NCBI GenBank assembly: GCA_022457155.1
Contig: JAJGOT010001129.1
Coordinates: 1 to 64,000, forward strand
DNA length: 64,000 nucleotides
DNA from: Cladopsammia gracilis
Taxonomy: Eukaryota > Cnidaria > Anthozoa > Scleractinia > Dendrophylliidae
Reading direction: 5' to 3'
Part shown: positions 23,695 to 38,904 of the stretch, piece after piece
How the letters are laid out: every line of letters begins with the position of its first letter
Numbering within the stretch: the stretch's first letter is position 1
Notes under the pieces: generated by a model
Database searches by the model: none
Told to the model about the DNA's origin: nothing
What the model saw: only the letters and a program-made list of their open reading frames with translations
Translations under genes and position numbers: made by a program

Positions 23695-23699
23695 ATAAA

Positions 23700-23975
23700 A
23701 TGAGTGCCAAAGAAAAACTTTTCACAATCGGAGACAAAGATTTCTTTTCCGTAGAGGAAACGGGAATCCCACTCAAGCAAATGAAAAATTATGCAACTTG
23801 GATTCACCCCAAATTCAAAGAAGCATGTGGTTTGACGGATGAAGACTTGGAATGGTATAAAGGGGTTGAAAATGAAAGAAACTTCCAAAAAGCGGTTGAC
23901 ATGGCCATTGGTTTTCTTCCAGTCCGATCGGAAGAGGATCGCAAGTTCATGGAAAAATGGATTTTCGCGATTTAA
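23700..23975 (+). CDS. small Polinton protein of unknown function
   Basis: A 91-residue protein with no recognised domain. The start is chosen at the ATG in AATAAAATG, 5 bp after the polymerase stop, which matches the start context of the virion genes. It is rich in charged residues, with an EWYKGVENERNFQKAVDM stretch near the C-terminus, and probably alpha-helical. Tight spacing to the polymerase and to the following gene suggests a shared transcript or closely packed promoters. Confidence 0.7.
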   Translation: MSAKEKLFTIGDKDFFSVEETGIPLKQMKNYATWIHPKFKEACGLTDEDLEWYKGVENERNFQKAVDMAIGFLPVRSEEDRKFMEKWIFAI

Positions 23976-24001
23976 TTCATTTTTTTATCTCCTCCCAAAA
24001 A

Positions 24002-24625
24002 ATGAATCCCGCGAAAATATCTATCCCCGACTGCTCTCTCGACAACCCCGTGAAAAAATCTTCCGGAAAAATCTCTTTCTGTCTCCTCCCATGCCTTCAC
24101 AATGACAAATGGCTCAAAGTGAAACTCCAAACCAAATTCAAGATTTTCGCTCATCAAGGCGACTCGTTTTCTCTGGGAATCACTCTTCCGGAAGAAAACA
24201 TCAAATTTTTCAAAGATTTGGAAAAACATCTCAACTCTGCTGCGATGAAAAAGAAGCAGGCAATCAAAGAGATTTCCCCGTCTTTTGCTCGATTTCAGGA
24301 GGGAGATTTCACTCTCGTGAAAATCGACAAATCCGAGCAGGAAAAGATTTATGCCAAGATTTATCCCTCCAAACTCAAGCACACGGATTTCTCGTGTCGA
24401 TTTTGGGAATTGTGCGACGATGGGAAGAAAAAGCCAATCCTGAGGCAAAAAGAGCTCACTGGCGTTCCTCTCCGGGGGCAAGTTGTGTTTTCAATCAAAC
24501 ATCTTTTCTGCGGAAATCTGAAAGCCATCACATGCATCGTGGATGAAGTTTTGGTGGAGGAAAAGGTGGAAGCTGCTTCAGAATTCGATGAGTTTGAGGA
24601 CAAGAATGAGGACGATGAAGTTTGA
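24002..24625 (+). CDS. candidate single-stranded DNA-binding protein
   Basis: A 207-residue protein starting at MNPAKIS (ATG after CCCAAAAA). The body is beta-rich with LVKIDKSEQEKIYAKIYPS and RGQVVFSIKHLFCG segments. It ends in an acidic tail (EFDEFEDKNEDDEV). A compact beta-rich body with an acidic C-terminal tail, placed next to the replicative polymerase, is the usual look of viral and phage ssDNA-binding proteins. No sequence motif proves it, so the function is inference. It could instead be another replication accessory factor. Confidence 0.55.
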   Translation: MNPAKISIPDCSLDNPVKKSSGKISFCLLPCLHNDKWLKVKLQTKFKIFAHQGDSFSLGITLPEENIKFFKDLEKHLNSAAMKKKQAIKEISPSFARFQEGDFTLVKIDKSEQEKIYAKIYPSKLKHTDFSCRFWELCDDGKKKPILRQKELTGVPLRGQVVFSIKHLFCGNLKAITCIVDEVLVEEKVEAASEFDEFEDKNEDDEV

Positions 24626-24688
24626 TCTCGCTGAGATCAGGGAGAAAATCTTTTCCAGAATTCAATTCTGGAAAAGGCAGAACTTTTT

Positions 24689-24895
24689 TCAGATTTGTGC
24701 AGATCCGCAGAATTTGCAATGAGTTGATTCAGTCATCATTTTCTCAAACAATTCAGTTTGTTTTTTCATATCTGCGGCAATCTCTTCAACCCACTTTTCC
24801 AAATTCACATAGCTTTCCATCAGCAGGTCAATGGAATCAATTTCGTCGTCACTTTCACTCAGTTTTTTTCTTTTCGCATTTGAATTTGAAGGCAT
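24689..24895 (-). CDS. small acidic/coiled-coil Polinton protein
   Basis: A 68-residue minus-strand frame starting at MPSNSNAKRKK. The start is chosen because the ATG sits in TTGGAAAGAAAATG, the same leader as three other regulatory genes of the element. A basic patch (AKRKK) is followed by an acidic DDEID segment, a predicted helix (LLMESYVNLEKWVEEIAADM) and a C-terminal CKFC pair that could bind metal with a partner. Function unknown. Confidence 0.6.
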   Translation of the reverse strand: MPSNSNAKRKKLSESDDEIDSIDLLMESYVNLEKWVEEIAADMKKQTELFEKMMTESTHCKFCGSAQI

Positions 24896-24949
24896 TTTCT
24901 TTCCAATCATTTTTTTCCTCAGGGGAAATTTTCCACTCCGGAAAATGAA

Positions 24950-25975
24950 AATGAATCCCCTCCGGAAAATGCATTTTGAATTTCAAAACCCCTCCGGAAA
25001 AAATGGATTTTTCTGGAGCAGATATCTATTCCAGAAAAAATGGATTTTTCTGGAGCAGAAAATGCCTTCCGGAAAAAATGGATTTTTCTGGAGCAGATAT
25101 CTATTCCAGAAAAAATGGATTTTTCTGGAGCAGAAAATGCCTTCCAGAAAAAATGGATTTTTCTGGAGCAGAAAATGCCTTCCAGAAAAAATGGATTTTT
25201 CTGGAGCAGATATCTATTCCAGAAAAAATGGATTTTTCTGGAGCAGAAAATGCCTTCCGGAAAAAATGGATTTTTCTGGAGCAGATATCTATTCCAGAAA
25301 AAATGGATTTTTCTGGAAAAAATATCTGCTCCAGAAAAACGAATTTTTGAATTTTGAATTTTGAATTCTGGAAAAAATATCTGCTCCAGAAAAACGAATT
25401 CGTTTTTCTGGAAAAAATATCTGCTCCAGAAAAATGAATTTGAATTTTGAATTCTGGAAAAAATATCTGCTCCAGAAAAATGAATTTTGAATTCTGGAAA
25501 AAATATCTGCTCCAGAAAAAATGAATTTTGAATTCTGGAAAAAATATCTGCTCCAGAAAAAACCAATTTTGAATTTTGAATTTTGAATTCTGGAAAAAAT
25601 ATCTGCTCCAGAAAAATGAATTTGAATTCTGGAAAAAATATCTGCTCCAGAAAAAACGAATTTTTGAATTTTGAATTTTGAATTCTGGAAAAAATATCTG
25701 CTCCAGAAAAAACGAATTTGAATTTTGAATTTGAAATTTGAATTTGAAAATGAATTCCGGAAAAATGAATTTGAATTTGAATTTGAAAATCCACTCCGGG
25801 GAAATGAATTTGAATTTGAAAATATCCACTCCAGAAAAATGAATTTGAATTTGAATTTGAATTTGAATATCCACTCCAGAAAAATGAATTTGAATTTGAA
25901 TTTGAAAATCCACTCCAGAAAAATGAATTTGAATTTGAATTTGAATTTGAAAATCCACTCAGGAAAATGATTTTC
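24950..25975. repeat. tandem and inverted repeat array inside the Polinton
   Basis: From 24950 to about 25315, units built on GGATTTTTCTGGAGCAGA repeat in one orientation. From about 25315 to 25715 the units CTGGAAAAAATATCTGCTCC repeat in the other, so the array is one large inverted repeat. A TTTGAAT-type short repeat follows to 25975. Open frames through it on both strands are repeat artefacts. It may serve as a recombination or replication structure (inference). Confidence 0.8.
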
Positions 25976-25989
25976 AAATTTTGCTGAAT

Positions 25990-26390
25990 TCAGCATTGTT
26001 CCGGAAACTGATTTTGGAATGAAATTTCCTCCGGAGCATTCCTCCCATATTATTTGGAGGAAAATTTTTTTCCAAATTTTTTTTCCAAATTTAATAAATG
26101 AAGGGATGTCCGGGGGATGAAAAATCTCCCCAAACGGATTTTGTGATGAAAAATCACCCCCAAAAACGGATTTTGGGATGAAAATCCTCCGGGGATTGAA
26201 AATCTCTCCGGGGTTTGAAAATCTTTCGCTGAAAATCAGCGTGAATTGACAATTCAAGAAAACTTTCTGCCCATTTCATCTAAAACTCAGTTAACTAAAT
26301 TGGAGAAATGGTTGGATAACATCACAGTTTATCCAGATAAAATGGGATTTTAATTTTTATTTCCCCTTTTTCTCAGCATAAAAACTGTTG
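25990..26390 (+). repeat. direct repeat of the gene-upstream segment, copy 1
   Basis: About 390 bp from CCGGAAACTGATTTTGGAAT to the TTTATTTCCCC tract, matching 26490-26880 with moderate divergence. Copy 2 ends at a gene start; copy 1 is followed by more repeat and has no gene. Confidence 0.75.
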
Positions 26391-26489
26391 AATTTTCAAA
26401 ATCCCCTCCGGAAAAGGAAAATGATTTTCAAAATCCCCTCTGGAAAATGTTTTTCCTGAATTGACTCAGGGAAAATGAATTTTGTTGAA

Positions 26490-26880
26490 TTTGACATTTC
26501 TCCGGAAACTGATTTTTGGAATGAAATTCCTCCGGACATTATTTCCCCAAATTATTTGAGGAAAAATTTTTTTCCAAATTTTTTGAATGAAATAATGTCC
26601 GGGGGAATGAAAAATCTCTCCAAAAATAGATTTCAGAACGAAAAAACGCCCACAAAAATGGATTTGGGATGAAAAATCTCCCTGAAAACGGATTTTGAGA
26701 TGAAAATCTCTCCGGGGATGAAAATCTTTCGCTGAAAATCAGCGGAAAATTCAAATTCAAGAAAACTTTCTGCCCATTTCATCTAAATCACAGTTGACTA
26801 AATTGGAGAAATGATTGGATAAAATTGAGCTTTATCCAGATAAAATGGGATTTTAATTTTTTATTTCCTTTTTTTCTCCA
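26490..26880 (+). repeat. direct repeat of the gene-upstream segment, copy 2
   Basis: Second copy, leading directly into the AAAGAAAATG start at 26887. It probably contains the promoter of that gene. Confidence 0.75.
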
Positions 26881-26923
26881 AAGAAAATGTCGAAGCCAGC
26901 ACCAACGCATTTTTCAATCTCCG

Positions 26924-27469
26924 ATGGGAAAAAAAACCAAAAATTTCACTTCCATCAATTCAGCGGCAAAAGAATATGGAATCTCAAATTGCGCAATCAC
27001 AAATGCATTGAAAAAGAATAACTCAACCATCACCCGGAGGTCGGACAAGAAAAAATTCTTCCTCGGCGAACCAAAAGCGGAAGATTCACAACTTTCTTGC
27101 GAAATCGATTTTTCTTCACTCCCAATGGATGAGGAATGGTTTGAAAAATTCAAGATCGCTGTTTCATCTTTTGATGAACTTTGTCGAATGATTGCGAATG
27201 AATTATTCGCGGATGAAGATCTCGAATTGGACTGGAAGAAAAAAGAATGCCAATACAATGGTGAAACCGTTTGCTTGATCAAAATCATTTCCATCATCTG
27301 CAGGGTGACTTTTCAGGTGAACAAAGAGAAAGCCCTAGCAGAACTGGAGGAGAAGATGGGAAAAAAAGATTTTCAACCCTTGAAACGATTGTCATTTGTC
27401 TCATCTTTGAGGAAAAATGAAAGAACATTTCACGTTGACATATTCAATAAAATCAGGAAATTCAAATAA
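26924..27469 (+). CDS. NUMOD1/HTH-like Polinton protein (start uncertain)
   Basis: A 181-residue frame from MGKKTKNF. Residues about 8-32 (FTSINSAAKEYGISNCAITN) match the short NUMOD1-type helix-turn-helix that accompanies homing endonucleases and viral regulators. The rest is a charged helical domain I do not recognise. The best start context (CCAAAGAAAATG at 26887) lies 37 bp upstream in another frame. The two frames meet in a run of eight A's (26929-26936), and a different run length would join them. This is either a true frame break in this copy or slippage. The inner ATG at 26924 is a poor-context alternative. Confidence 0.6.
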   Translation: MGKKTKNFTSINSAAKEYGISNCAITNALKKNNSTITRRSDKKKFFLGEPKAEDSQLSCEIDFSSLPMDEEWFEKFKIAVSSFDELCRMIANELFADEDLELDWKKKECQYNGETVCLIKIISIICRVTFQVNKEKALAELEEKMGKKDFQPLKRLSFVSSLRKNERTFHVDIFNKIRKFK

Positions 27470-27519
27470 ATTTTCCCCTGATTTCTTGCATGATTTTTCA
27501 TTTCCCAGAAATGAAAAAA

Positions 27520-28011
27520 TCACTCAAATCTTCCTTCCCATTCCTTCTCAAACTTTTCCAAATCCAACCCCAAATCAATCACAATCCCATCAATCGCTTC
27601 CATTGAAAACAAAAATTCATCCCTGTCGAATTTTCCTCCCCGCAAAGCGAAGCGCAAATCACTCAATGTTTTTTCATAGGTGGTGAAAGCGAACTTCGCC
27701 ATCTCAATTTTGCTTTTCAGATTCTTCATTTCATTCGCGGTTTTGACGACCAAACCCAATCCTGAAATCACTCCCAAAACGATTGGATTCAAAGTCGCGG
27801 CTCCAGCAATCGTCCCGATTGCAACCAGGCCGGAAGAGGTCAAATTCAGGAGCAGATTCATTTTCTTGAATCGACCATGCGCTCGTTTCAGGCACCAGAA
27901 TCTTTTGTGATAAAATCGAAAAAGTTTTTTGATCTCTTCCAGTTCTTCTTCCCGAATTGCGGGGTTGATGTGATTGAAAGCAAAAATGCTTTGTTTTCGC
28001 GCTCGCTTCAT
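27520..28011 (-). CDS. Polinton protein with Gly-rich hydrophobic segments
   Basis: A 163-residue protein. A basic, helical N-terminus (about 1-50) is followed by a long hydrophobic Gly/Ala-rich segment (LVAIGTIAGAATLNPIVLGV onward, about 60-90). That segment could form two membrane passes or an amphipathic hairpin. The C-terminal half is helical and charged. The start ATG follows CCTGAAAA. It is the most distal gene of the minus-strand block with the fibre and ATPase genes, so a virion membrane-active or assembly role is possible (inference). Confidence 0.65.
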   Translation of the reverse strand: MKRARKQSIFAFNHINPAIREEELEEIKKLFRFYHKRFWCLKRAHGRFKKMNLLLNLTSSGLVAIGTIAGAATLNPIVLGVISGLGLVVKTANEMKNLKSKIEMAKFAFTTYEKTLSDLRFALRGGKFDRDEFLFSMEAIDGIVIDLGLDLEKFEKEWEGRFE

Positions 28012-28026
28012 TTTTCAGGGAGAAAA

Positions 28027-29844
28027 TCATTTTTCAATCAGAATTGTCGCTTTTGCTCTTTGAATGGCATTTCCATCCGAGAGAGCCAGATAGAAAGCTT
28101 CTTCCTGCCCAACATGGAGATTGAAGGCGAACTGCAGTGAACCAAATGAATTGGTGGAAGGTCTGACTGCGTTCCGAGTGATGCGATCTCCTTTAACAAC
28201 ACTTGTCATGATGATGGTTGCTCCACTCACTAGGTTGGAACCGCGTTGAAGAATGAAAACCGTGACATTCAAAATCCGGAAGTCAGATCCAAATTGTTGC
28301 CAATAATTTGTTTCATCTTCCTCTTCATTTGGGAAGATCAAACAATCACCGTGTTTTCCTTTCACAAATCTTGCAAAAATGAAGTGTTTTGACGGGCGAA
28401 GCGGCAAATTCAACAAGGAGTGCGAATTCAAATCCAAGTCAGTCTCCATGACCATCTTCCCCGCTTGGAAAACGAAAGGGGAATCATAAACGCTGCTTTC
28501 AACATCAGGTTGAGAACCAGCAATGCCATATATGATCAACTTTGCGGATCCTTCTGCAGCTGACTGGGCAGTGCCTCGCCATTTCAAATCCAGGAAAATA
28601 AATTCAGGTGGGGAAATCCTCCATTTGTGCATGTGGATGATGGATCTGGAATACCCCGAAAACTTCTTAGTTGATTGCTGATTTATATTCAGACTGGCGC
28701 TCACAACGTTGACGCTCACGCCATCCATTGACGCGGGGAAGAATTCCACGCACACGGTGTATTCTCCCTCTGGGAGTTTGAACATATTGAATCCAAGTCT
28801 CCCAGAGTATTCATTAAAAAGATCTTTTGTGATTTCCAAGTCATAGGCCTTCTTGTTGAAATGATGCGGCGAATCTGGAAAATCACTTATCCCAGTCACT
28901 GTCATATGATGTTCAGAGCTGGATTCATCCACATCTTCCATCAGATAGCGGAATGCGTCCTTTGGGTGAGAGGTTGACGTGATATGCGATTCATTTACGT
29001 ATTTTTTGATCTTCTCTTCTAATTCCATCGTGTGGGCTACCACACCTCCTATCTGGTTATCCACATAAGATTTTGACGTGGGTTGTCGCTTCAGAGTTGG
29101 CGTTGCAATATTGTTGATTTGTTGCGAGTTCATATCCAGGTTTCCGGTCATTGTCCCGCCTTCCAACGAAAGCTTTTTCGCGGATTGGGCATCCACATAT
29201 CGCATATTTGCGCCCTGATCGGCAACTTCGGGATCTTTCACGTTAAAAATGGTGTGATTTCCCATATCCAAAGCTGTCTCCATTGGAAACGTCTCTTTGC
29301 GGCTGAGAAAGATATTTTTGGTGTCATTATAAGAAACCAGGTTGTTGTATGCGGCTCCCAAATCATGCCATGTTTGTTGTTTTGAGTTTTTCACGTTGAA
29401 AAGTTCTTTTAAATCAATATCCTTCGTGACTTCATGAGTGTGAGCCGGAGCATCAGGGTGGAATTTCTTCAGAGTGACCATATTCACCGCTGACAAATCC
29501 TGGTTTTCATCCGTGTCCAGATTGACGATCAATTTGCGATTCATTTCTATTTCCCCGGGGTTGATGAGTTTTTGTCCCCTGAGATCAAGATCCCCAGTCA
29601 TATGGGAAGACCCATCCACCTGGAGAGAATCTGCCCGCAATTGCGTTGCAAGCGTGTCAACTTGGTGCTTTGTGATTGCATCCGAATTCCCCGTTCCTTC
29701 AGCGACATTTGTCAGGCGTTTCCTTTGCAGGTCGAAGTCCCCTGCCGGCGTTAGCTTGAAACCAACTCCTGGCAATCCATCTTTTCCATCTCGTCCTCCC
29801 TGGGAGGTGCTTGTTTCAGACAGCAATCCATTTGAATAACTCAT
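28027..29844 (-). CDS. fibre-like virion protein with collagen-like start
   Basis: A 605-residue protein. The start is chosen at MSYSNG because that ATG sits in TTTAAAATG two bases after the ATPase stop; longer upstream frame exists. A short collagen-like run (GRDGKDGLPGVGF) near residue 17 is followed by several tail-fibre-type repeats of the form MTGDLDLRGQKLIN, LDMGNHTIFNVKDP and MTGNLDMNSQQINN. Each repeat is followed by a segment ending in YVD or similar. The C-terminal 250 residues are beta-rich and probably form the knob. The architecture suggests a trimeric attachment fibre on the capsid. No receptor can be inferred. Confidence 0.75.
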   Translation of the reverse strand: MSYSNGLLSETSTSQGGRDGKDGLPGVGFKLTPAGDFDLQRKRLTNVAEGTGNSDAITKHQVDTLATQLRADSLQVDGSSHMTGDLDLRGQKLINPGEIEMNRKLIVNLDTDENQDLSAVNMVTLKKFHPDAPAHTHEVTKDIDLKELFNVKNSKQQTWHDLGAAYNNLVSYNDTKNIFLSRKETFPMETALDMGNHTIFNVKDPEVADQGANMRYVDAQSAKKLSLEGGTMTGNLDMNSQQINNIATPTLKRQPTSKSYVDNQIGGVVAHTMELEEKIKKYVNESHITSTSHPKDAFRYLMEDVDESSSEHHMTVTGISDFPDSPHHFNKKAYDLEITKDLFNEYSGRLGFNMFKLPEGEYTVCVEFFPASMDGVSVNVVSASLNINQQSTKKFSGYSRSIIHMHKWRISPPEFIFLDLKWRGTAQSAAEGSAKLIIYGIAGSQPDVESSVYDSPFVFQAGKMVMETDLDLNSHSLLNLPLRPSKHFIFARFVKGKHGDCLIFPNEEEDETNYWQQFGSDFRILNVTVFILQRGSNLVSGATIIMTSVVKGDRITRNAVRPSTNSFGSLQFAFNLHVGQEEAFYLALSDGNAIQRAKATILIEK

Positions 29845-29845
29845 T

Positions 29846-30478
29846 TTAAATGCTTTCATCAAAGTTTTTGGCAATGAATTTCCTCGGCTTATCCACATAC
29901 AGGAAAGAGAACGGATCATGCGTTGCTTTCCGATAATCTTCTTTGCCGACATTGTTCTCCCTGCAGATCGCCGTAATTTCTTTGTTGCTTGGGAATTCGA
30001 AGATGCAAAAATGCGAGCAATTCAGACGGATATCTTTTGGTGTTCCGAAATAACTTTGCGAAAGATAAATCACAGAACATTTCTTGTGCCTGCCCTGAAT
30101 GAAATAATCAATCAATGGCTTTTGGTTTTTTTCGGAAACAAAATCATCGAAAACAACCAGCTTTTGATTCTCCCCTGACAATTCAGAAACTGGGATGATT
30201 TCATCCGGGGATGCTTCCACGACGTCATACCCAGCTTCTTTGCTGATTGGGCGAAATGTTTTCAGCAGATGTTGATATTTGGTTTGGTCAAGATTTTTCG
30301 CATAGAGGAAAATTTTATCGTAGAAGAGCAGGCGAAAAATCATATCCAGGAGAACATTTGTTTTCCCCGATCCTGAAGGGCCACAGATCAACATTCTGAA
30401 AGTTCGATCCGGCATGAAAGGGTGAAGTTGTTTGAAATTCGTGATTGGATCCTGGCAATCATAATTTGGAATCTTCAT
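29846..30478 (-). CDS. A32-like genome-packaging ATPase
   Basis: A 210-residue FtsK/HerA-superfamily ATPase, the family that pumps DNA into capsids in Polintons and large DNA viruses. Walker A is GPSGSGKT (residues 33-40), Walker B is KLVVFDDF (D111, D112), and an LSQSYF polar motif lies near residue 141. The start is set at MKIPNYD, whose ATG lies in AATAAAATG. Another ATG 15 bases upstream is less likely. It runs divergently from the virion gene at 30569 across a 90-bp gap that must hold both promoters. Length and motifs are normal for the family. Confidence 0.93.
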   Translation of the reverse strand: MKIPNYDCQDPITNFKQLHPFMPDRTFRMLICGPSGSGKTNVLLDMIFRLLFYDKIFLYAKNLDQTKYQHLLKTFRPISKEAGYDVVEASPDEIIPVSELSGENQKLVVFDDFVSEKNQKPLIDYFIQGRHKKCSVIYLSQSYFGTPKDIRLNCSHFCIFEFPSNKEITAICRENNVGKEDYRKATHDPFSFLYVDKPRKFIAKNFDESI

Positions 30479-30568
30479 TTTATTAATGAACATGGCGTTC
30501 TTTATCTTGTTCTACATCTTGTTCTTTATCTTGTTCTACATCCTGAATTCATGTTTCTGGGATATAAA

Positions 30569-31549
30569 ATGAGTTTATTGAAATGGCAAGAAATGGCTAA
30601 AAGCAAATCTGCTTTGGGGAAAAAAATCAACTTTGTTCACAATGCTATCACCCAGAAAAAGTTGAGTGAAGAGACAAGTCAAATCGGACTTGAAAAAACA
30701 TTCAAACCCATCACATCGAAACTGGATGAGGTGATTGAGTCGAATTTGGGGCCGCTTCGGCCACTTCCCCGGAAAAAGAAAAAAGCCAAACCAGCGGAGA
30801 TTGATTATCTCCCCGAAGTCGACGACCCATTTGAAGATATGGATGTCGAAGGCCTGTTTGATGAGGCCGTTCCATCCCAACCCAAGAAGCAAATTCCAGC
30901 AGGGCCGCCAACATATGAAGAAGTTGTGGAAGAGATTGGGGAAGATCCACCTGAATATGAAGAAGACGACTCTCCCGATTATGCTCTTGTGCCGGGAGAT
31001 GAAGGGGAATGGGAAGAGGAAGAGGAAGATGAAGCCAATCAGATATTGGATAGCTTGGACCTCACGAATTATGATACTGCGGAGAAAACTCTCAGTGAAC
31101 CAAATATCACATCAACGAGGAAAATCAATTATCTCAAGGGTCTTGTGACCATTGCAAACTACAGAAGAAATCAGTTGAAGGGCTACAAATCATCTTGGAC
31201 CAAAAAATTCAAGAAAGGGGAAATAACGCAAGAGCAAAAGAATTTGCAACATAGCAGAATAGACCACTCATCCCGAATTTTGAGTGAATACATCAAACAT
31301 TTTCAAGCGAAACAAAAGACATTGGAAGGTTCGGGAATCAGGAGAAAAAAAGGTGGATCCATCCGTTTTTTCTCCAACCCCGCAGATCTCCTCCAGAAAC
31401 TTGAGGTCATTGTTGGCTCCATTCTCGCGGGGAATACGAATCAGGGGATCAGAAACACTGGAGTTGGTATTCTTGATCTTCTCCTGAAAGAGGGAGTCAT
31501 CAATCGTTCCCAGCATGAGAAGCTTTTCAGAAAGTATTTCAAACTCTAA
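30569..31549 (+). CDS. minor virion protein with PPxY late-domain motifs
   Basis: A 326-residue protein starting in ATATAAAATG. A basic KKKKAK patch is followed by a long acidic region containing two PPxY motifs (PPTYEE near 30906 and PPEYEE near 30946). PPxY motifs are established docking sites for Nedd4-type ubiquitin ligases used in budding or endosomal escape. A LEGSG sequence (about 31322-31336) fits the adenovirus-protease consensus (M/I/L)xGx-G. The C-terminal 70 residues form a conserved-looking helical domain (RFFSNPADLLQKLEVIVG onward). Its place next to penton and MCP genes supports a structural role. Exact homology not recognised. Confidence 0.7.
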   Translation: MSLLKWQEMAKSKSALGKKINFVHNAITQKKLSEETSQIGLEKTFKPITSKLDEVIESNLGPLRPLPRKKKKAKPAEIDYLPEVDDPFEDMDVEGLFDEAVPSQPKKQIPAGPPTYEEVVEEIGEDPPEYEEDDSPDYALVPGDEGEWEEEEEDEANQILDSLDLTNYDTAEKTLSEPNITSTRKINYLKGLVTIANYRRNQLKGYKSSWTKKFKKGEITQEQKNLQHSRIDHSSRILSEYIKHFQAKQKTLEGSGIRRKKGGSIRFFSNPADLLQKLEVIVGSILAGNTNQGIRNTGVGILDLLLKEGVINRSQHEKLFRKYFKL

Positions 31550-31550
31550 A

Positions 31551-32327
31551 ATGGAAATCGAAAGAGAAATTGTCCTGTCATCCTTTTCCGTCAAGACTGG
31601 GGGAAACAAACCAGAAAATTTCACAACAAAATTCAATCGGCCCATTGTTTTGGATCCAAATTCCCAATATGTTGTTGGGTTGAACAGAATTATCAATATG
31701 AGTTTTACGTGGTATAACATCAATGCGGCATTGAAAAATCAGCTGATCAGATTCAGCTCTGACGGTGGGAAAACATTTTCCGATATCGCCTTTCCCGCTG
31801 GGGTTTGGGATTATTCCACTTTGAATGCGGCAATTCGAAACGCAACAGGCCCCCTCGCAGGATCCACCCCAGGAAAGAATGAAAAATTCCCAATCAATCT
31901 TGCTTTCTCTCCCACAACTTTCAGAGTAACAATCACGCTGGAAGAAAACTGGCAACTTGATCTCGAGAAATCCAACTTCGGCGATCTCATTGGTTTCGAT
32001 AAAAAGATTCTGAAAGACAAAGTCAACATTGGCCCCAGAGTTCCAAACCTCAGTCAAGATACTGATATGTTGAACGTTCATTGCGATCTCACAAGTGATT
32101 CGCTTGTGGATGGGGAAGAGAGTGATATCATCTTCTCCTTTTCCACATCTGTTCTGCAGGCCTCCTATAGTTTCACTCTTGAACCCATGAGAGTGATGTT
32201 CAGCCCTGTGAATAAAAACAGAATAAGCTCCATTCGGATCTGGATCACCGATGGGAAAAGGCGGGTTGTTGATTTGAATGGGGCTGATACAGCATTCTCG
32301 CTTATCTTGAAAAAACAAATAAAATGA
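31551..32327 (+). CDS. penton / minor capsid protein (single jelly-roll)
   Basis: A 258-residue protein starting at MEIERE in CTCTAAAATG, one base after the previous stop. It is beta-rich with FNRPIVLDPNSQYVVGLN, a WDYSTLNAAIRN motif and a C-terminal SSIRIWITDGKRRVVDL strand pair. Length, position directly before a small virion gene and the MCP, and the Y/W-S-x-L-N pattern fit the Polinton minor capsid protein that forms pentons at the icosahedral vertices. No catalytic motif is expected. Confidence 0.85.
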   Translation: MEIEREIVLSSFSVKTGGNKPENFTTKFNRPIVLDPNSQYVVGLNRIINMSFTWYNINAALKNQLIRFSSDGGKTFSDIAFPAGVWDYSTLNAAIRNATGPLAGSTPGKNEKFPINLAFSPTTFRVTITLEENWQLDLEKSNFGDLIGFDKKILKDKVNIGPRVPNLSQDTDMLNVHCDLTSDSLVDGEESDIIFSFSTSVLQASYSFTLEPMRVMFSPVNKNRISSIRIWITDGKRRVVDLNGADTAFSLILKKQIK

Positions 32328-32743
32328 AAAGTTATGAATTCTCTCGTTATTATCACCCCCAGCTGGGACGGTTTGTCTTCCGGCATAAAGGAACAGGTGT
32401 CATTATGGACAATATTTTCAAACCAATGAGGAAGGTCGCATCAGTCGTCTTCAATAAATTCGCGAAACCCATTGCGAAAAAAGCATTGGAATCAGGAATT
32501 TCTCACGCTGGGGATAAACTCGGCAAAAAAGTAGTTGAAAAATCTGGCGATTTGATCATGAAAAAGCTGGGAAATATGAGAAAGGGGAAGCCACCAGGCA
32601 AAACAAAGCCACCAGCGAGCGAAGCGAGCCGAGCGAAGCTAGCTCGACCACAATCAGCCCCTGCGTCAACCTCCGGAGAAAGTTCTGATGCCATATTGAA
32701 CAGGTTGATCTCTGGGCAGGGAGTCCGAAAAAGAAAAAAATAA
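32324..32743 (+). CDS. small basic virion protein (pVI/pX-like candidate)
   Basis: A 139-residue protein whose ATG overlaps the penton stop (ATGA at 32324-32327), in AATAAAATG context. An amphipathic helix (PIAKKALESGISHAGDKLGK) occupies the middle. A Lys/Pro-rich linker carries an inserted-looking GC-rich motif (SEASRAKLARP). The C-terminus is a basic tail preceded by ISGQG, which fits the adenovirus-protease consensus (I/L/M)xGx-G. An amphipathic helix plus a cleavable basic tail is typical of membrane-lytic minor proteins of protease-containing icosahedral viruses; that role is inference. Confidence 0.65.
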   Translation: MKSYEFSRYYHPQLGRFVFRHKGTGVIMDNIFKPMRKVASVVFNKFAKPIAKKALESGISHAGDKLGKKVVEKSGDLIMKKLGNMRKGKPPGKTKPPASEASRAKLARPQSAPASTSGESSDAILNRLISGQGVRKRKK

Positions 32744-32749
32744 TATAAA

Positions 32750-34030
32750 ATGGCTTTTCGATCGAATGAATATCTTCAAAGAAATGAATTAGTGCGCTTC
32801 CAGCTGAATGACACAATCCGAGCTCCAGCTAATGGGCAACATCAACAAAAAAGTGGTTATAAATTCACGATTAATGACCGATCCGCATTCTATGATTGGT
32901 ATAATGCTTATTTCGAGGTGCAATTTCAACTTCAAAAACTGGCGAATGGTGCTGGGTATGCAGCAGCTGACAGGATCACAGTGATCAATGGCGCTCATTC
33001 CCTGATTAATCACCTGAAGATTAGTTCTGCTGGAAAGATTGTTTATGAGACTGATAATCTGCATAACGTTACTTTTATTAAAAATTTGCTAGAATACTCC
33101 GATGACTTCAGCAGATCAGTCGCCAAGAACAGTTTCTGGTATTTGGATACTGATGCAACAACCGCTAATACGAATCTTGGATTTGAAGCTCGGCGGGTGC
33201 AATCTCAAGCAGTGGCAAACGATGGAGGCGGCGGTGCAAAGAACATTAACACGATCATTCCCCTGAATCGCTTTTCCTTTTTCGAAGAGTTGGAGGATAA
33301 GATGCTTGTGCCTATGCAGCTCCAATTTGAGATTAAGCTTCAACAGGATAATGAATTAATTCATATGGCTAATGGCACTGATGATGGAAGAGTTGTTGTG
33401 AATAGGTTTTTGCTTTGGGTCCCCAGATTGACACCGAAAGATTCTCTTTATGACAAATTTGTCAGCGCATTTATGCGAGAAACACAATGGAAATATCTGA
33501 GGGAGATGTATTCCGAATCAGCTCCTACGCAGTCATCAGGATTCTTCCAGATATCCGCAAGTATTGACAATGTTAAGCATATTTTTGTTTATCTTAAAAG
33601 AACCAATGATGACGCTAAAGAAGAAGATAGCCCTTATCTGATGGACACTTTCAAGCTGAATGCAGCGGATAACGCCTCATCCTTGTCGAACTGCCGGCTG
33701 GAATATGGAAACGGAGTTTTCTACCCGGAAACAGAGTATGACAGTGAAAGCAAAGTGAGGATTTTCCAGGATGTCATGGCTTATGCAATGAGGAAAAATG
33801 ATTATAACACTGGAACGCAGTTGAATCTGGCCAATTTCAAGTCTCTTTTCCCGTTGATCTATTTCAATCTGACTTATCAAACTGAAAAACCAACAAGAGA
33901 TCCCAAGCAGCTGATATTCAGGTATCGATTGAACGCAGATGCAGCGGCAAACTTCAATGTACATGCGATAGTTCTCTATGAAGAACTGGTGAAAATTGAT
34001 AAGATTGGAAATGAGCTGGTTATCGTGTGA
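32750..34030 (+). CDS. major capsid protein, double jelly-roll
   Basis: A 426-residue hexon-like protein starting at MAFRSNEY in TATAAAATG. It has the usual Polinton MCP layout. The N-terminal arm is followed by YDWYNAYFEVQFQLQK strands of the first jelly-roll, then PLNRFSFFEELEDKMLVPMQ, a feature of this family. The second jelly-roll ends with VHAIVLYEELVKID. Length and layout are normal, with no frame damage. It self-assembles with the penton protein into an icosahedral shell in this family (established knowledge); assembly here is inferred. Confidence 0.93.
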   Translation: MAFRSNEYLQRNELVRFQLNDTIRAPANGQHQQKSGYKFTINDRSAFYDWYNAYFEVQFQLQKLANGAGYAAADRITVINGAHSLINHLKISSAGKIVYETDNLHNVTFIKNLLEYSDDFSRSVAKNSFWYLDTDATTANTNLGFEARRVQSQAVANDGGGGAKNINTIIPLNRFSFFEELEDKMLVPMQLQFEIKLQQDNELIHMANGTDDGRVVVNRFLLWVPRLTPKDSLYDKFVSAFMRETQWKYLREMYSESAPTQSSGFFQISASIDNVKHIFVYLKRTNDDAKEEDSPYLMDTFKLNAADNASSLSNCRLEYGNGVFYPETEYDSESKVRIFQDVMAYAMRKNDYNTGTQLNLANFKSLFPLIYFNLTYQTEKPTRDPKQLIFRYRLNADAAANFNVHAIVLYEELVKIDKIGNELVIV

Positions 34031-34066
34031 CGTGTGATCTGTGAAAAACATATCTTGTCATTTAAA

Positions 34067-34936
34067 ATGACAACATATCACCCATATAAAGTAAATCTGT
34101 CGAAAGGGCAAAAAAGCAAGCTTGGAAGAGCATTCAAAGCAAACTGCGCTATCACCCTGAGGCTGAAAAAAAATCAAACACGCGGAAATGATGAACTGAT
34201 GCTGACAGTCAATCAAAAGAACCGAGTTGCCAAAGCCGCATCTCAGGGAAAGGGAGTTGAAATCAAGATATCAAAAACGCAAATCCGAAAGGTAATGAAG
34301 CAAGGTGGAAGTCTTTTCTCTGCTATTGTTCCCCTGGCTCGTTCCCTCGCACCCACCCTAGCAAAGACACTTGGACTGTCAGCATTGGCTGGTTTGGCGA
34401 GTGAAGGAGCGAGTCAAGTCGTGAAAAAGATAAGCGGGAAGGGAGGCGGGCAAACGGGCGGATTTCTCATTCCCCAAGATAAAATTCAAAAACTGATTGA
34501 CAATAAACATTTGTTGACAAATAAGCAGAAACAGGATATTTTGACTGCCCTGAAATCAGGAGGACAACTGACGATAAAACCAACAGCAAAACAATCTGGT
34601 GGATTGTTGGGAACTGTGCTGGCTTCCATCGGAATTCCACTGGCGCTGGATATGGTGAAAAATTTGTTTGGGAAGGGAGCTCCTAGAGTTGGTCGCCCAA
34701 AGGGAAAAGGAGCGCCAAGAGTTGGTCGCCCAAAGGGAAAAGGCGCTCCTAGAGTCCGGCAGCCCAAAGGAAACGGCGCGCCGAGATTGGGGGCGCATCC
34801 GTTTCAACCTCCCCCATTCATCGGAACCTGGGGACGAAAAATTGGGATAGGAAAAAAATCCAAAAAAGGAACGGGACTTCTGCTGGGATCGAAAAGTCCA
34901 TTCAACAACATCCCAGTTCTCGGGGCAATATTGTGA
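34067..34936 (+). CDS. core/minor virion protein with PRVGRPKGKGA repeats
   Basis: A 289-residue protein starting at MTTYHPYKVNLS in TTTAAAATG. A globular N-terminus (1-90) is followed by GGSLFSAIVPLARSLAPTLA, a hydrophobic helix pair. Three near-identical 11-residue basic repeats (GKGAPRVGRPK type, about 34671-34770) look like DNA-condensing tails. The C-terminus is a LLLGSKSPFNNIPVLG tail. This order is typical of the Polinton protein encoded just after MCP and probably serves as a nucleoprotein or internal capsid protein. Its TGA overlaps the presumed start of the protease frame. Confidence 0.75.
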   Translation: MTTYHPYKVNLSKGQKSKLGRAFKANCAITLRLKKNQTRGNDELMLTVNQKNRVAKAASQGKGVEIKISKTQIRKVMKQGGSLFSAIVPLARSLAPTLAKTLGLSALAGLASEGASQVVKKISGKGGGQTGGFLIPQDKIQKLIDNKHLLTNKQKQDILTALKSGGQLTIKPTAKQSGGLLGTVLASIGIPLALDMVKNLFGKGAPRVGRPKGKGAPRVGRPKGKGAPRVRQPKGNGAPRLGAHPFQPPPFIGTWGRKIGIGKKSKKGTGLLLGSKSPFNNIPVLGAIL

Positions 34937-35376
34937 GCGAAACGAAACCCAAATTCGTGAACAAACCACTGACCAACCTTGATCTTCTCCAGTGGATTGA
35001 TTTTCTGAAAATTCCCAATTTCAAAGGGATTTTCGCCAGGGATGAAGCCATGCCCCGAGAACACAGCCCCTGCATTATCAATCTTGATTCGCTTAAAAAT
35101 GCCGGAACTCACTGGGTGTGCTGCGCCCCCGGACAGAAATTCACGTGGTATTTCGACTCTTTTGGGATGGGATTTCCCCAGGAATTCAAAAGTTCCAAAC
35201 CGGTGATTTGGAACAGCAGTCAGTATCAAAACATAGACAGCGTTCTTTGCGGGTATTATTGCCTGTTTTTCCTCCATCAATGGTCGCAGGGGAAAGATTT
35301 CTATGATATTCTCAAACCTCTCAGTCTGACTGACTCGGGGGAGAATGAAAAATTCATAAAAGAATATTTCGATTGA
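34933..35376 (+). CDS. adenovirus-type cysteine protease (non-AUG or coupled start)
   Basis: A C5/Ulp1-fold maturation protease of 147 residues. The catalytic His is in GTHWVCC, the acidic partner in WYFDSFG, and the nucleophile Cys in VLCGYYC. The conserved N-terminal stretch PLTNLDLLQWI has no ATG before it. The frame can begin at GTG (34933), which overlaps the previous gene's stop as GTGA; the first ATG is at residue 40. It is likely to cleave the small virion proteins, which carry consensus sites (ISGQG, LEGSG, LDGGA). An upstream in-phase A_AAA_AAA (34852-34858) would also lead into this frame by a -1 slip. Confidence 0.88.
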   Translation: MSETKPKFVNKPLTNLDLLQWIDFLKIPNFKGIFARDEAMPREHSPCIINLDSLKNAGTHWVCCAPGQKFTWYFDSFGMGFPQEFKSSKPVIWNSSQYQNIDSVLCGYYCLFFLHQWSQGKDFYDILKPLSLTDSGENEKFIKEYFD

Positions 35377-35378
35377 AA

Positions 35379-35603
35379 ATGAAAATTTTCTATCCCAAAG
35401 AATCCCGCCTGAGTTATTTGAACGCAAAAAATCTTTATCCTTTTAACAAAAACACAGAGTGGCACCAGAGAGAATTATTCAAGCTGTTGAACAGCTCTGG
35501 GTTTGGAAAAATCATGGAAATCAAGTCAGGAGAAGGAAAAATTCAAAAGAATATTTCGATTGAAAATGAAGTCATATTGCGTGAAAGAGAAAAAACAAAC
35601 TGA
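35379..35603 (+). CDS. short Polinton reading frame of unknown function
   Basis: 74 residues starting MKIFYPKES, three bases after the protease stop. The leader around its ATG (AGAATATTTCGATTGAAAATG) is duplicated at 35549-35568, where it precedes the zinc-ribbon frame. The frame's own C-terminal third is therefore produced by that duplicated piece. It may be a degraded or recently formed gene. No domain recognised. Confidence 0.4.
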   Translation: MKIFYPKESRLSYLNAKNLYPFNKNTEWHQRELFKLLNSSGFGKIMEIKSGEGKIQKNISIENEVILREREKTN

Positions 35604-35742
35604 ATGCGTGAAACCAACTGGGTATATGACCGCAAAAAATGGCAGAAAAATGTGGTTTTGTCATTGCGCTTCCTGCGGAATCAAGAAAACAAGATTTGTG
35701 AAAGCGAGCGGAGCGAGCCGCGGAGCGAAATCGGGAAACTGA
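35566..35742 (+). CDS. DUF5679-like zinc-ribbon domain
   Basis: 58 residues starting MKSYCVKEKKQTEC. Cysteines in the N-terminal knuckle and in FCHCASCG, with the TAKNGRKMW signature between, match the small DUF5679 zinc ribbon found in many Polintons and large DNA viruses. The second Cys of the first pair is replaced by Glu (YCVKE), which is unusual. The frame ends GGA AAC TGA, an in-phase slippery heptamer followed by a strong stem-loop. Some ribosomes could thus shift to -1 and continue into the PLA2 frame, placing this domain at the N-terminus of a fusion. Confidence 0.7.
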   Translation: MKSYCVKEKKQTECVKPTGYMTAKNGRKMWFCHCASCGIKKTRFVKASGASRGAKSGN

Positions 35743-35765
35743 ATCTGCCCCCACAAGGTGGGGGC
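35733..35765 (+). promoter_or_regulatory. candidate -1 ribosomal frameshift signal (zinc ribbon to PLA2)
   Basis: The heptamer G_GGA_AAC (35733-35739) lies in the correct phase. A 7-nt spacer containing the stop TGA follows, then an 8-bp GC-rich stem GCCCCCAC/GTGGGGGC (35747-35754 with 35758-35765). A -1 slip enters exactly the PLA2 frame. G_GGA_AAC is an established slippery sequence of retroviral gag-pro junctions. Function here is inferred. Confidence 0.7.
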
Positions 35766-36428
35766 TTTGGTGAACTTGCGCTGACTGGCGTGGCTCATGC
35801 GCTGCCTTGGATTGGGAAAAAAACAGTTGAAATGGGTCGTTATGGAGCTAGTGAATTGTTGCGAAACAAAAACGCTCAAAAGAAAGCATTGGATTTTGCC
35901 CTGGACAAGATGAAACCATTTCTTGCCAAAACCTCTGCTGATATGATGAATGAGCTGAGCACAGCGATTAGACCAAACAGAAAATATAAGACAGATCGAG
36001 CAGATTTGGATGGCGGTGCTTTAGATATTCATTCCCTGATTGGGAAGCTGCCAAGACCAAAGAAAGGTTTCACCCTCCCAGGGCATAATTATACAGGCCC
36101 CTGGAACCCACTCGAAAAACAAGTCAGATTTGATGAAAAGGGAAAAATTCTCGAAATTATGCAGCAGCCCACAGGAAAAACAGACGCAGTTGCTATGCAG
36201 CACGATGTTGATTATTCAGTCTGCGCAAAGAAAGCGGATCCGCGCAAATGCAAGAACGAAGCAGACAGGAAAATGGTTGCCGCTTTGGATGCCATTCCCT
36301 GGAAAGAAAGGCAATGGGGGCATGCTTTGGCGAGAAACACAATTCAAGCAAAACAAAAACTGGGTCTCGGCTTCGCCTCGGCCCGCTCCGCTGGCCTCGG
36401 TGCCCCAAAAAACGGGAAAAGATTTTGA
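35739..36428 (+). CDS. phospholipase A2-like virion protein
   Basis: The frame begins where the -1 shift would enter (CTG after GGGAAAC) and runs 229 residues. A Gly-rich start (PPQGGGFGELALTG) is followed by a helical region. LDGGA (about 36005-36019) fits the protease consensus (L)xGG-x. The PLA2 core has calcium-loop sequence YTGPWNP (near 36090) and the catalytic HD pair in AMQHDVDYSVC (near 36196). This pattern is known from parvovirus VP1 N-terminal regions, where PLA2 helps endosomal escape. No ATG precedes the conserved part in this frame except in sequence that codes for the zinc ribbon. The C-terminus carries a GC-rich motif (FASARSAG) and the second frameshift signal. Confidence 0.75.
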   Translation: MNLPPQGGGFGELALTGVAHALPWIGKKTVEMGRYGASELLRNKNAQKKALDFALDKMKPFLAKTSADMMNELSTAIRPNRKYKTDRADLDGGALDIHSLIGKLPRPKKGFTLPGHNYTGPWNPLEKQVRFDEKGKILEIMQQPTGKTDAVAMQHDVDYSVCAKKADPRKCKNEADRKMVAALDAIPWKERQWGHALARNTIQAKQKLGLGFASARSAGLGAPKNGKRF

Positions 36429-36450
36429 GTGAAGGCTGGGCTCAAAATCT
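36407..36450 (+). promoter_or_regulatory. candidate -1 ribosomal frameshift signal (PLA2 to integrase)
   Basis: A_AAA_AAC (36407-36413) is in phase with the PLA2 frame, twelve bases before its TGA. After a 6-nt spacer comes a perfect 10-bp stem, AGATTTTGAG (36420-36429) with CTCAAAATCT (36441-36450), and an 11-nt loop. A -1 slip enters exactly the integrase frame. A_AAA_AAC is among the most efficient known slippery heptamers (mammalian-type retroviral gag-pro). Confidence 0.72.
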
Positions 36451-37375
36451 GGCAAATGAACTTCACCGGCCAATCAGGCGGCGCTTTCCAAAGAGGCGAG
36501 TCATAGCATATGGGATTGACAACATCTGGGCGGCTGATCTGGTTGAGATGGGGAAATTTTCGAGGTGGAATAAAGGGATCAGATACCTGCTGATGGTGAT
36601 CGATGTTTTCTCAAAATTCGGTTGGATTCGTCCCCTGAAAGACAAGCGAGGTCAAACAGTGGCTGATGCTTTCCGAGATATATTTAAAACGAAGCGAAAA
36701 CCGAAAATGCTTTGGACTGATAAAGGAAGTGAGTTTTTCAACGCAACAATGAAAGATCTGCTTGATAAGAATGGGGTAAAATTGTATACAACGGAAAATG
36801 AAGAGAAATCGTCTGTTGTTGAACGCTGGAATCGGACCATGAAGGAGAAACTCTTCCGGATGTTTTCTGCTAACAATAATACAATTTTCTTTGATAAACT
36901 TGATAAATTAGTGGATGAATATAACCGTCGTTTTCATTCGAGCATTCGGATGAGCCCCGCAGAGGCGAGCAAACAGAAAAATGAGAAAAAGGTTTTCGCA
37001 AATCTTTTCAGCGATATGATTTATGCAAAACATGCCCCAGCAAAATTCAAAGTCGGCGACAGGGTTAGAATTTCAAAATATAAGCGAAAGATATTTGACA
37101 AAGGTTTCACCCCGAACTGGACAGAGGAGATATTTGTGATTGATGAAATATTGAGCACAAATCCTGTAACGTATAAATTAGTTGATCTGCTGGGAGAGAA
37201 AATCACTGGATCGTTTTACGAAGCAGAATTGTCGCATACTGGGCAAGATGTTTTCCGCATTGAAAAAGTTCTTCGCCGCGATCACAAGAAAAAGAAAGCT
37301 TTGGTAAAATGGAAAGGCTATTCCGATAAATTCAATTCTTGGATTCCGCTGAGTGATGTGGAAAAACTTGGCTGA
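36413..37375 (+). CDS. retroviral-type integrase with C-terminal chromodomain
   Basis: About 320 residues from the frameshift entry point. The rve core has catalytic D in WAADLVEM (near 36536), D in LWTDKGSEF (near 36719) and E in VVERWNRT about 33 residues later. After a KFKVGDRVRISKYK SH3-like DNA-binding segment comes a chromodomain (YxVEKVL-type: FRIEKVLRRD...VKWKGYSDKFNSW, 37252-37372). Integrase inserts the element with a 6-bp stagger, matching the GGCGTG duplication. There is no in-frame ATG between the heptamer and the first catalytic Asp. The only upstream ATGs (36248, 36314) lie inside the PLA2 coding region, so expression through the frameshift is the simplest route. Confidence 0.93.
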   Translation, partial: REKILSEGWAQNLANELHRPIRRRFPKRRVIAYGIDNIWAADLVEMGKFSRWNKGIRYLLMVIDVFSKFGWIRPLKDKRGQTVADAFRDIFKTKRKPKMLWTDKGSEFFNATMKDLLDKNGVKLYTTENEEKSSVVERWNRTMKEKLFRMFSANNNTIFFDKLDKLVDEYNRRFHSSIRMSPAEASKQKNEKKVFANLFSDMIYAKHAPAKFKVGDRVRISKYKRKIFDKGFTPNWTEEIFVIDEILSTNPVTYKLVDLLGEKITGSFYEAELSHTGQDVFRIEKVLRRDHKKKKALVKWKGYSDKFNSWIPLSDVEKLG

Positions 37376-37430
37376 AAAAGTCAATCATTGAAATTAAAAA
37401 TATTAGAATATGAATGTTTGCCATTCATAT

Positions 37431-37775
37431 TCATGATTTCAAATCACCGCTTTCTTTCAATTCCCGGTGGATTTCCCAGAGGAGACAACTTTGCTTTTGG
37501 AGTTCCTTTTTGAGAATCTTGTATTCCTTTTTGAGAATCTCATGTTCCTCCTGGAGATTGGCAAAAGATTCAAAAAGTTTTTCAATTTCATCGTCTCCCC
37601 ACTCCTCTTCTTCAGCTTCCTCCATCTCTGAATCAGAGACAATGAATTCCTCGTCAGAGGTTGTTGGGGTTTCATCTTCGCTTCTTGTTTCTTCCTCTGA
37701 GCATGTGGAACAATTTTCATGGTCACTGGCTTCGCTTTGCTCAGCTTCATTGGAAAATGATTTTTCAAGATCCAT
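37431..37775 (-). CDS. acidic coiled-coil Polinton protein
   Basis: 114 residues from MDLEKSFSNEA. The start is supported by TTGGAAAGAAAATG. The N-terminal 75 residues are Glu/Ser-rich and very acidic. The C-terminal part (LQEEHEILKKEYKILKKELQ) is a clear heptad coiled coil. It overlaps the end of the VLTF3-like gene by 11 bp. A multimerising acidic regulator or DNA mimic is possible; function unknown. Confidence 0.62.
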   Translation of the reverse strand: MDLEKSFSNEAEQSEASDHENCSTCSEEETRSEDETPTTSDEEFIVSDSEMEEAEEEEWGDDEIEKLFESFANLQEEHEILKKEYKILKKELQKQSCLLWEIHRELKESGDLKS

Positions 37776-38340
37776 TTTCTTTCCAATGACATTTTTTGAA
37801 GATTGTTTGGATTATTTTTTCTTGTTTCGCCCGGCTGGATGGAGTTTTGAGCAGTTTGAAATCATCTTCATTGGGGCTGAAACCGTTCTTCTTCAACAGG
37901 GCGAAAAGAATTTGATTGCAATTGAGAAACTTGTCTCTGCTGAGAAACTTGTCTCTGCTGAGATGAAGGTCATTATATGCAAGTGAAAAATATTTAAAGT
38001 CGTCAATGAGAAATTTTTCCAGGTGTTCATAATCATTTCCGTCGTGACCTGTTATGTGATTAAAAATTGCATGATCGTTGCCATGGACTTTTTTCCACTT
38101 GGAAGCTTTGACGAAATCCCTGACTTTTTTTCTTGTGATTTCATCACGGGGAATTTGGGAGAGAATTTCTTTTTCATAAAATTCGAGATCTTTGAGTGGA
38201 ATTTGATTTTTCCCCTGATTTTTGCGGATGATATTTTTGAAATGTTCCAGCCTGGGATTTTTGTGAGATTGCCATGTTGTGCGGATTTCTCGAATAATTT
38301 CAGGAGTATCATCTATTTCTTCTTCTTCGGAATCAGACAT
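37765..38340 (-). CDS. VLTF3-like late transcription factor candidate
   Basis: A 191-residue protein starting MSDSEEEE in CGGAAAGAAAATG. After an acidic N-terminus, the body follows the order of poxvirus/NCLDV late factor VLTF3. That order is LEHFKNIIRKNQGKNQIPL, then a charged helical stretch, then RDKFLNCNQILFALLKKNGF, and a C-terminal DDFKLLKT...IIQTIFKKCHW segment. The zinc-binding part of larger homologues is missing. An internal 6-residue repeat (SRDKFLSRDKFL) is present. If correct, it would drive the virion genes that share the TAAAATG start context. The family call is from pattern recognition only. Confidence 0.6.
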   Translation of the reverse strand: MSDSEEEEIDDTPEIIREIRTTWQSHKNPRLEHFKNIIRKNQGKNQIPLKDLEFYEKEILSQIPRDEITRKKVRDFVKASKWKKVHGNDHAIFNHITGHDGNDYEHLEKFLIDDFKYFSLAYNDLHLSRDKFLSRDKFLNCNQILFALLKKNGFSPNEDDFKLLKTPSSRAKQEKIIQTIFKKCHWKENGS

Positions 38341-38489
38341 TTTCTTTCCGGGAGAGAATTTTTATCGTCACCACTGACAGAATTTGGCAGAGATTTTCCA
38401 CCACCGCTGCCGGAATTTGGGAGAGATTTTCCACTGCTAGAATTGGGGGAGATTTTCCACTGCTAGAATTGGGGAGAGAGATTTCATCG

Positions 38490-38898
38490 GTAGTATAAAA
38501 AAGATTATTCACCGCCAACATCATCATTTCTTACGTTTACCCAAACATAAACCCATGACACAAAGCAATAAACTAAAATGTCTGCCAATCGTAACAGCTA
38601 AATAATATCATAGCTTATGCGAAAGACGAGGGTAAATTTGGTTCGATGATTTATGCCAATTCAAATTAAAAAAAATAAATGGCAATTGTCATAATATTTT
38701 CAGCTTATTCGAAACACGGGGTGAATTTGGTTCGTTGATGTTAATTTTACATTACATGTTAATATCCGCAGAAATAATAATTTATTTCTCAAAATGGTTG
38801 TGTGGTTTTTTAGCTTATTTGCTTTGTGTCATGGGTTTATGTTTGGGAAAGCGTAAGAAATGATGATGTTGGCGGTGAATAATCTTTTTTATACTACT
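38490..38898. repeat. Polinton right terminal repeat, 409 bp
   Basis: Begins GTAGTATAAAAAAG and ends TTTTTTATACTACT. It is almost identical to the left unit in the same (direct) orientation, yet still inverted at its outer 88 bp because each unit carries inverted arms. Confidence 0.93.
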
Positions 38899-38904
38899 GG
38901 CGTG
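38899..38904. other. Polinton target-site duplication, right (GGCGTG)
   Basis: Matches 18726-18731. Confidence 0.93.

Follow-up and report, generated by a model that had tools for sequence, protein, structure and literature searches.

The zinc-ribbon, PLA2 and integrase frames

The DNA analysed here (the window) is a stretch of 64,000 nucleotides of contig JAJGOT010001129.1 from Cladopsammia gracilis, and it holds a whole Polinton. Near the right end of this element, on the plus strand, stand a zinc-ribbon open reading frame (ORF) of the DUF5679 family, a PLA2-like ORF and an integrase ORF, each displaced by −1 from its predecessor (Table 1). The original prediction placed two successive −1 frameshift signals at the junctions of these frames, and those two junctions, called crossing 1 (zinc ribbon to PLA2) and crossing 2 (PLA2 to integrase), are the subject of this analysis. 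The element had also been assigned to the Polintons, and this assignment held. The terminal inverted repeats (18732-18811 and 38819-38898) are 98% complementary and have additional inner copies, a 6-bp target-site duplication flanks both ends, and Pfam matches identified an rve integrase with a chromodomain and a packaging ATPase (Pox_A32, E 5.8e-14).

In this element, both junctions carry two features expected of a programmed −1 frameshift site, namely an in-phase heptamer of the form X_XXY_YYZ and a structure 5-9 nt downstream. The heptamers, their phase, both spacers and the first stem were found on the sequence as predicted, and the second stem proved to have one G-U pair in addition to the ten Watson-Crick pairs described. 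Shifting back one base at either site would lead into the PLA2 and integrase frames, respectively, as the ORF frames confirmed. The hairpin z-scores in Table 1 were calculated on short segments against 200 shuffles, and both segments folded better than nearly all of their shuffles. The stretch of the PLA2-like ORF that is conserved with other PLA2 proteins begins at about the first slip site. The claim that the integrase has no ATG between the heptamer and its first catalytic Asp was also correct: the first ATG in that frame after the heptamer is at 36548, beyond the codon at 36536, which was taken as this Asp.

The expectation by chance was estimated by recoding this element's proteins with synonymous codons and scoring any of five strong heptamers in the last 24 nt. 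Such a heptamer was present in 1.8% of draws for the zinc ribbon and in 10% for PLA2. Across 12 ORFs of the element, in-phase heptamers were enriched near stops, with 4/20 lying within 21 nt of a stop (hypergeometric P 0.0013), and one of these four, at 32734, leads into no known −1 frame. By themselves, the two heptamers are mildly unlikely, and the single element is only suggestive. Its significance, weak under synonymous recoding, was dropped as the chief argument. Since one element does not settle the question, the weight is carried by relatives.

The two copies of an exact 26-nt direct repeat (35358-35383 and 35545-35570), which has no third copy in the window, reach into the start codons at 35379 (a 74-aa ORF) and 35566 (the zinc ribbon). 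The repeat may be part of a promoter or leader, or else a minor duplication.

Table 1. Positions of the Polinton, the three linked ORFs and the features at their junctions.
Feature	Position	Strand	Remarks
Zinc-ribbon ORF, DUF5679, frame 0	35566..35742	+	Pfam PF18930 E 1.5e-6
PLA2-like ORF, −1 frame vs zinc ribbon	35604..36428	+	Pfam PF08398 E 4e-9
Integrase ORF, −1 frame vs PLA2	36248..37375	+	Pfam rve E 2.3e-11, Chromo E 3.9e-7
Slippery heptamer 1, G_GGA_AAC	35733..35739	+	In phase with zinc-ribbon ORF (ATG 35566); stop TGA 35740-35742 directly after
Hairpin 1, 8-bp stem, 3-nt loop	35747..35765	+	7-nt spacer after heptamer 1; −16.7 kcal/mol, z −3.2
Slippery heptamer 2, A_AAA_AAC	36407..36413	+	In phase with PLA2; 12 nt before stop TGA 36426-36428
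Hairpin 2, 11 pairs (10 Watson-Crick and one G-U)	36420..36450	+	6-nt spacer; −12.7 kcal/mol, z −3.3; covers PLA2 stop
TTGA, TTG codon (integrase frame) overlapping PLA2 stop	36425..36428	+	Candidate reinitiation site
Whole Polinton, 20,167 bp	18732..38898	.	Terminal inverted repeats; element ends AGTAGTAT
Target-site duplication GGCGTG, left copy, 6 bp	18726..18731	.	
Target-site duplication GGCGTG, right copy, 6 bp	38899..38904	.	

Residues at the two crossings in relatives

Protein searches at E 0.001 returned 1904 relatives of the PLA2 and 4697 of the integrase, and the best 120 of each set were used for all counts out of 120 given here. DNA relatives were sought among viral contigs and genome contigs and by tblastn of the integrase against phages and plasmids, and none were confirmed. 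At the amino-acid level, the slip sites of both crossings were kept more than their flanks.

At crossing 2, the PLA2 tail after a KLGLG-type core reads KN in 77 proteins and LN in 34, together 111/120. The pattern [KL]N was present in 59 of 62 distinct tails, compared to 26 expected on average by shuffling (maximum 37); this is a raw pattern count that includes four proteins outside the 111. On a tree of the PLA2 core, the state changes between K and L about 10 times, at least five of them on well-supported branches. Exchange of residues so unlike, with the N kept, is hard to explain by protein function as the cause. The residue preceding KN can be encoded by an A-ending codon in 77/77 tails. 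The sole exception among 81 KN-bearing tails is P0115 (D-KN), in which PLA2 is fused in frame to the integrase, so that no slip is needed. On the integrase side, seven of the 120 proteins run upstream of the usual start and read KKR (six) or GKR (one), which is the −1 reading of the heptamer; these seven were picked by the KR pattern itself. The remaining 113 integrases start at the NTG place (108) or further downstream (P0121, P0135, P0137, P0140 and P0169). The three heptamers that would suit the residues at the two crossings, GGGAAAC, AAAAAAC and TTTAAAC, are placed together with G_GGU_UUU among the most shifty with mammalian ribosomes in the relevant part of a frameshifting review (PMC5009743).

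At crossing 1, back-translation showed that 34/120 PLA2 ORFs overlap the C-terminus of the zinc ribbon (e.g., CGI-KT-F) in the −1 frame, compared to 13/6000 fits for shuffled heads. In these relatives, PLA2 is thus offset from the zinc ribbon by −1, as it is in this element. Each of the 34 carries [G/K]K[L/R/W] at the crossing (20 GKL, 12 GKR, one GKW and one KKL); the scoring pattern required the middle K only, and the proteins had been chosen by their zinc-ribbon overlap. The residues just upstream of the motif differ in both sequence and number among relatives. An earlier count of the motif at this site (50/120 plus the window) was not relied on, because its pattern already required [GK]K.

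The zinc-ribbon side was viewed in 36 proteins, which ended in GN (17), GN followed by a tail (six), KN (two) or EN (one), ran in frame into the PLA2 start motif (three), or were of other kinds (seven). GN is thus found at the crossing in 23/36, and the residue preceding it can have a G-ending codon in 23/23. In the six proteins with a tail after GN (P0252, P0254, P0259, P0266, P0267 and P0269), the PLA2 start motif can be read in the −1 frame at GN. This motif is loose: shuffled ends fit it in 262/3600 cases, roughly half of the 36 proteins match it in the +1 frame at an unrelated position near the N-terminus, and the −1 frame matches it elsewhere too in P0268, P0269 and P0275. Consequently, these fits give modest support. 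A tree of 40 rows showed four changes between in-frame and out-of-frame states at site 1; a site-1 label on the PLA2 core tree was too loose and was left unused.

P0268, P0270 and P0273 join the zinc ribbon to a tail (GLLLGKxSPF..) which, in this element, forms the end of the ORF immediately preceding the putative protease. The zinc ribbon appears to shift between junctions.

Some relatives carry the same parts in a single frame. The zinc ribbon and PLA2 form one ORF in P0011, P0016, P0072, P0091 and P0101; the PLA2 N-terminus of P0091 is of the longer P0013 type. P0115 and P0238 join PLA2 to the integrase without a break, pieces of this fusion are present in P0117 (integrase start only) and P0176 (PLA2 end only), and P0136 is continuous after an upstream frame change. 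The predicted fused product therefore exists in nature. No usable heptamer is left in P0115 and P0117, as expected if it is needed only where the phases differ, whereas P0176 and P0238 still read KKR.

Proposed mechanism and competing explanations

We consider it likely, with a probability of roughly 80%, that two programmed −1 frameshifts join the zinc ribbon, PLA2 and integrase. This reading fits the window and, much more strongly, the residue pattern of the relatives; the claim of two successive signals thus drew support from the window, from the residues and from the few in-frame fusions. We infer that one Polinton mRNA would carry the three frames in succession and that most ribosomes would terminate after the zinc ribbon. 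A fraction would slip back one base on G_GGA_AAC, probably aided by the hairpin, to give a zinc ribbon-PLA2 protein. Of these ribosomes, a fraction would slip again on A_AAA_AAC, entering the integrase frame at 36413, to give a zinc ribbon-PLA2-integrase protein. The products would be made in falling amounts, with the zinc ribbon above zinc ribbon-PLA2 and the latter above the three-part fusion. The likely purpose would be to make little integrase and to attach it physically to PLA2, presumably a protein of the particle; PLA2 could then bring it into particles, much as Gag-Pol does with retroviral integrase.

Several observations weigh against this reading. The hairpin z-scores drop to −1.7 (site 1) and −1.3 (site 2) on longer segments. 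The heptamers of the relatives were derived from amino acids rather than codons, and the counts are not independent because many of the best 120 rows are close relatives. Nine of the 120 PLA2 tails lack a counted KN or LN and were set aside: P0012 is frame-scrambled, P0071 and P0103 have other tails, P0094 has KD, P0100 has no KN, P0112 and P0120 end early, and P0115 and P0117 are continuous with the integrase. The in-frame zinc-ribbon fusions P0016, P0072 and P0101 retain the GK motif. GK may thus be conserved partly for protein reasons, which tells somewhat against a purely RNA role. The remaining points of this kind concern how the frames start, and they belong with two of the rival explanations.

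The main rival, which concerns the integrase, is coupled termination and reinitiation. Here, PLA2 would end at its TGA, translation would resume at the overlapping NTG and yield the integrase as a protein of its own, and the step from zinc ribbon to PLA2 would be a separate matter. In its favour, the called start of 108/120 integrases falls at the position corresponding to the TTG over the PLA2 stop of this element, with M followed by S, R or N (88 MS, 15 MR, three MN and two 'M S (D)'). The element also has junctions of the same shape at 32324 (ATGA) and 34933 (GTGA). However, the overlapping codon in this element is TTG, and in relatives the called starts could include TTG or GTG, which means that the 108 are not necessarily ATG. 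The last codon of PLA2 can end only in C or T in 73/112 relatives, which leaves an overlapping codon that is neither ATG nor GTG; this figure assumes complete ORFs, and the set of 112 still includes P0094. In 25/41 long PLA2 tails, the DW motif of the integrase can already be read in the −1 frame ahead of the PLA2 stop, compared to 45/8200 in a shuffled control, and reinitiation does not predict the K/L-N pattern or the heptamer residues. On this balance, reinitiation appears unlikely.

Independent starts seem quite improbable. PLA2 would then be translated from the ATG at 35604 and the integrase from that at 36248 or 36314; leaky scanning or internal promoters would give access to them, and the frames would overlap at length out of phase. 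These ATGs do exist: both −1 frames stay open beyond the slip sites on the upstream side and contain them there, which the original prediction, otherwise accurate in its description of the frames, had omitted. The openness, 43 codons in the PLA2 frame (P 0.028) and 65 in the integrase frame (P 0.008), exceeds what synonymous recoding predicts and is counted as evidence for separate starts. The PLA2 ATG is common to P0001-P0003 and P0081, P0171 starts at the equivalent of 36314, and a different and longer N-terminus, in most cases starting on its own, is present in 14/120 PLA2 proteins (P0013 type), where crossing 1 need not be a slip. On the other hand, the PLA2 ATG falls on Glu-Cys codons of the zinc ribbon and the common MW/MR start of relatives on its Cys-Gly codons, and such ATGs may therefore be by-products. 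Nor is the upstream ATG general, because 70/120 PLA2 ORFs show no visible crossing 1 and most of these begin further downstream. The zinc-ribbon ATG has a purine at −3, and separate starts leave the slippery residues unexplained. A third possibility, that indels or mistakes in the assembly disrupt the frames, or that introns remove the stops, with the heptamers coincidental, is very improbable. A run of six A is error-prone, the heptamer chances for a single element are 1.8% and 10%, and P0012 and P0028 look frame-scrambled; yet tens of protein clusters repeat this −1 arrangement, and the target-site duplication and long ORFs of the element are intact.

Other junctions in the element are of interest for the two-frameshift reading. 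The putative protease frame (34753-35376) is −1 relative to the preceding ORF (34067-34936), whose stop is overlapped by a GTGA; it contains no ATG upstream of 35050, and an in-phase A_AAA_AAA lies at 34852-34858. This junction is a possible further site of frameshifting or reinitiation. The polymerase-like ORF ends in GAA AAA AAC TAA, with an in-phase A_AAA_AAC (23685-23691) right before the stop, and is followed by an ORF (ATG 23700) that is read in the −1 frame. In the N-terminal part of the PLA2 protein (~35760-35980), the helical stretch ahead of the PLA2 domain and a conserved G-x-G immediately past the slip site resemble, to our eye, adenovirus pVI and adenain cleavage sites, and protease cleavage sites at the junctions are a matter of speculation. 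Tentatively, a class of eukaryotic DNA transposon-viruses may have reached the logic of gag-pro-pol independently, with two tandem frameshifts giving a scarce integrase that is fused to a membrane-active particle protein and thereby packaged and delivered along with the genome, and these two further −1 junctions, upstream of the putative protease and at the end of the polymerase-like ORF, may be in use in the element; we regard this broader picture as doubtful.

The rest of the gene content was less clearly matched. The 1241-aa polymerase-like ORF has motifs that we take to be those of a polymerase (cf. protein-primed DNA polymerase B). Its Pfam and PHROGs matches were to endonuclease VII, Rho_N and weaker entries, and PDB gave none at E 0.01. 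The putative protease ORF had a weak adenain match (E 0.026) that ranked below antibody chains, presumed to be chance matches, and no match in Pfam or PHROGs. A 426-aa ORF without a library match occupies the usual position of the double jelly-roll major capsid protein. Elsewhere in the window, on the minus strand at 45870-48117, matches to a tyrosine recombinase and to a reverse-transcriptase RNase H lie side by side, perhaps a DIRS-like retroelement.

Comparison with known systems

The statement in the original prediction that no description of this in Polintons was known needs amendment for related viruses; for the PLA2 and integrase junctions, no account was found in the titles, abstracts and passages covered. 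In the relevant part of a 2024 preprint (PMC11071296), −1 slippery sites are predicted with KnotInFrame near the end of adintovirus Penton genes, with a similar relation for Hexon-Adenain. This predicted pair, the Penton sites and the Hexon-Adenain fusion, is the nearest precedent found. Adintoviruses are likewise Polinton-like animal viruses with a predicted −1 frameshift; the genes are different, and the portion concerned mentions neither PLA2 nor integrase junctions and includes no conservation test. Literature on Polinton, adintovirus and DUF5679, covered chiefly at the level of titles and abstracts, gave no account of the zinc ribbon-PLA2-integrase arrangement, and the portion of the frameshifting review concerned (PMC5009743) mentions neither Polinton nor Maverick. 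A parvovirus-like PLA2 with a proposed role in entry has been described in some Polintons, and the relevant text describes no frame linkage of these genes to the integrase or zinc ribbon (PMC4642659). PEG10 and PNMA differ from the Polinton in being retrotransposon-derived host genes with a single shift; like it, they are eukaryotic genes that come from mobile elements and use −1 frameshifting, according to the passage on them in PMC5009743.

If the two-frameshift reading is true, Polinton integrase and PLA2 may be wrongly handled as separate proteins across a large family, represented here by the 1904 and 4697 relatives. The dosage of integrase in a eukaryotic DNA element would then be set by tandem frameshifting too, as known from retroviruses. 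How Polintons limit integration and how integrase might enter particles would become testable, and the latter bears on whether Polintons are viruses.

Bacterial transposases of the IS3 type (OrfA/OrfAB) share with the Polinton the use of a −1 shift to limit an rve-type enzyme in a mobile DNA element, and differ in being bacterial and in having one shift, two ORFs and no virion-type partners. The retroviral gag-pro-pol arrangement of the MMTV/HTLV type uses two successive −1 frameshifts. Within 35566-37375, only zinc-ribbon, PLA2 and integrase matches were present and none to a reverse transcriptase, so the cassette is not a member of gag-pro-pol. The Polinton is a DNA element with a zinc ribbon and PLA2 in place of Gag, and its putative protease is a separate upstream gene. 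What the two systems have in common is a pair of −1 shifts at the same class of heptamer, a DDE integrase at the far end and a particle-type protein upstream, and in this respect the Polinton cassette may work like gag-pro-pol.

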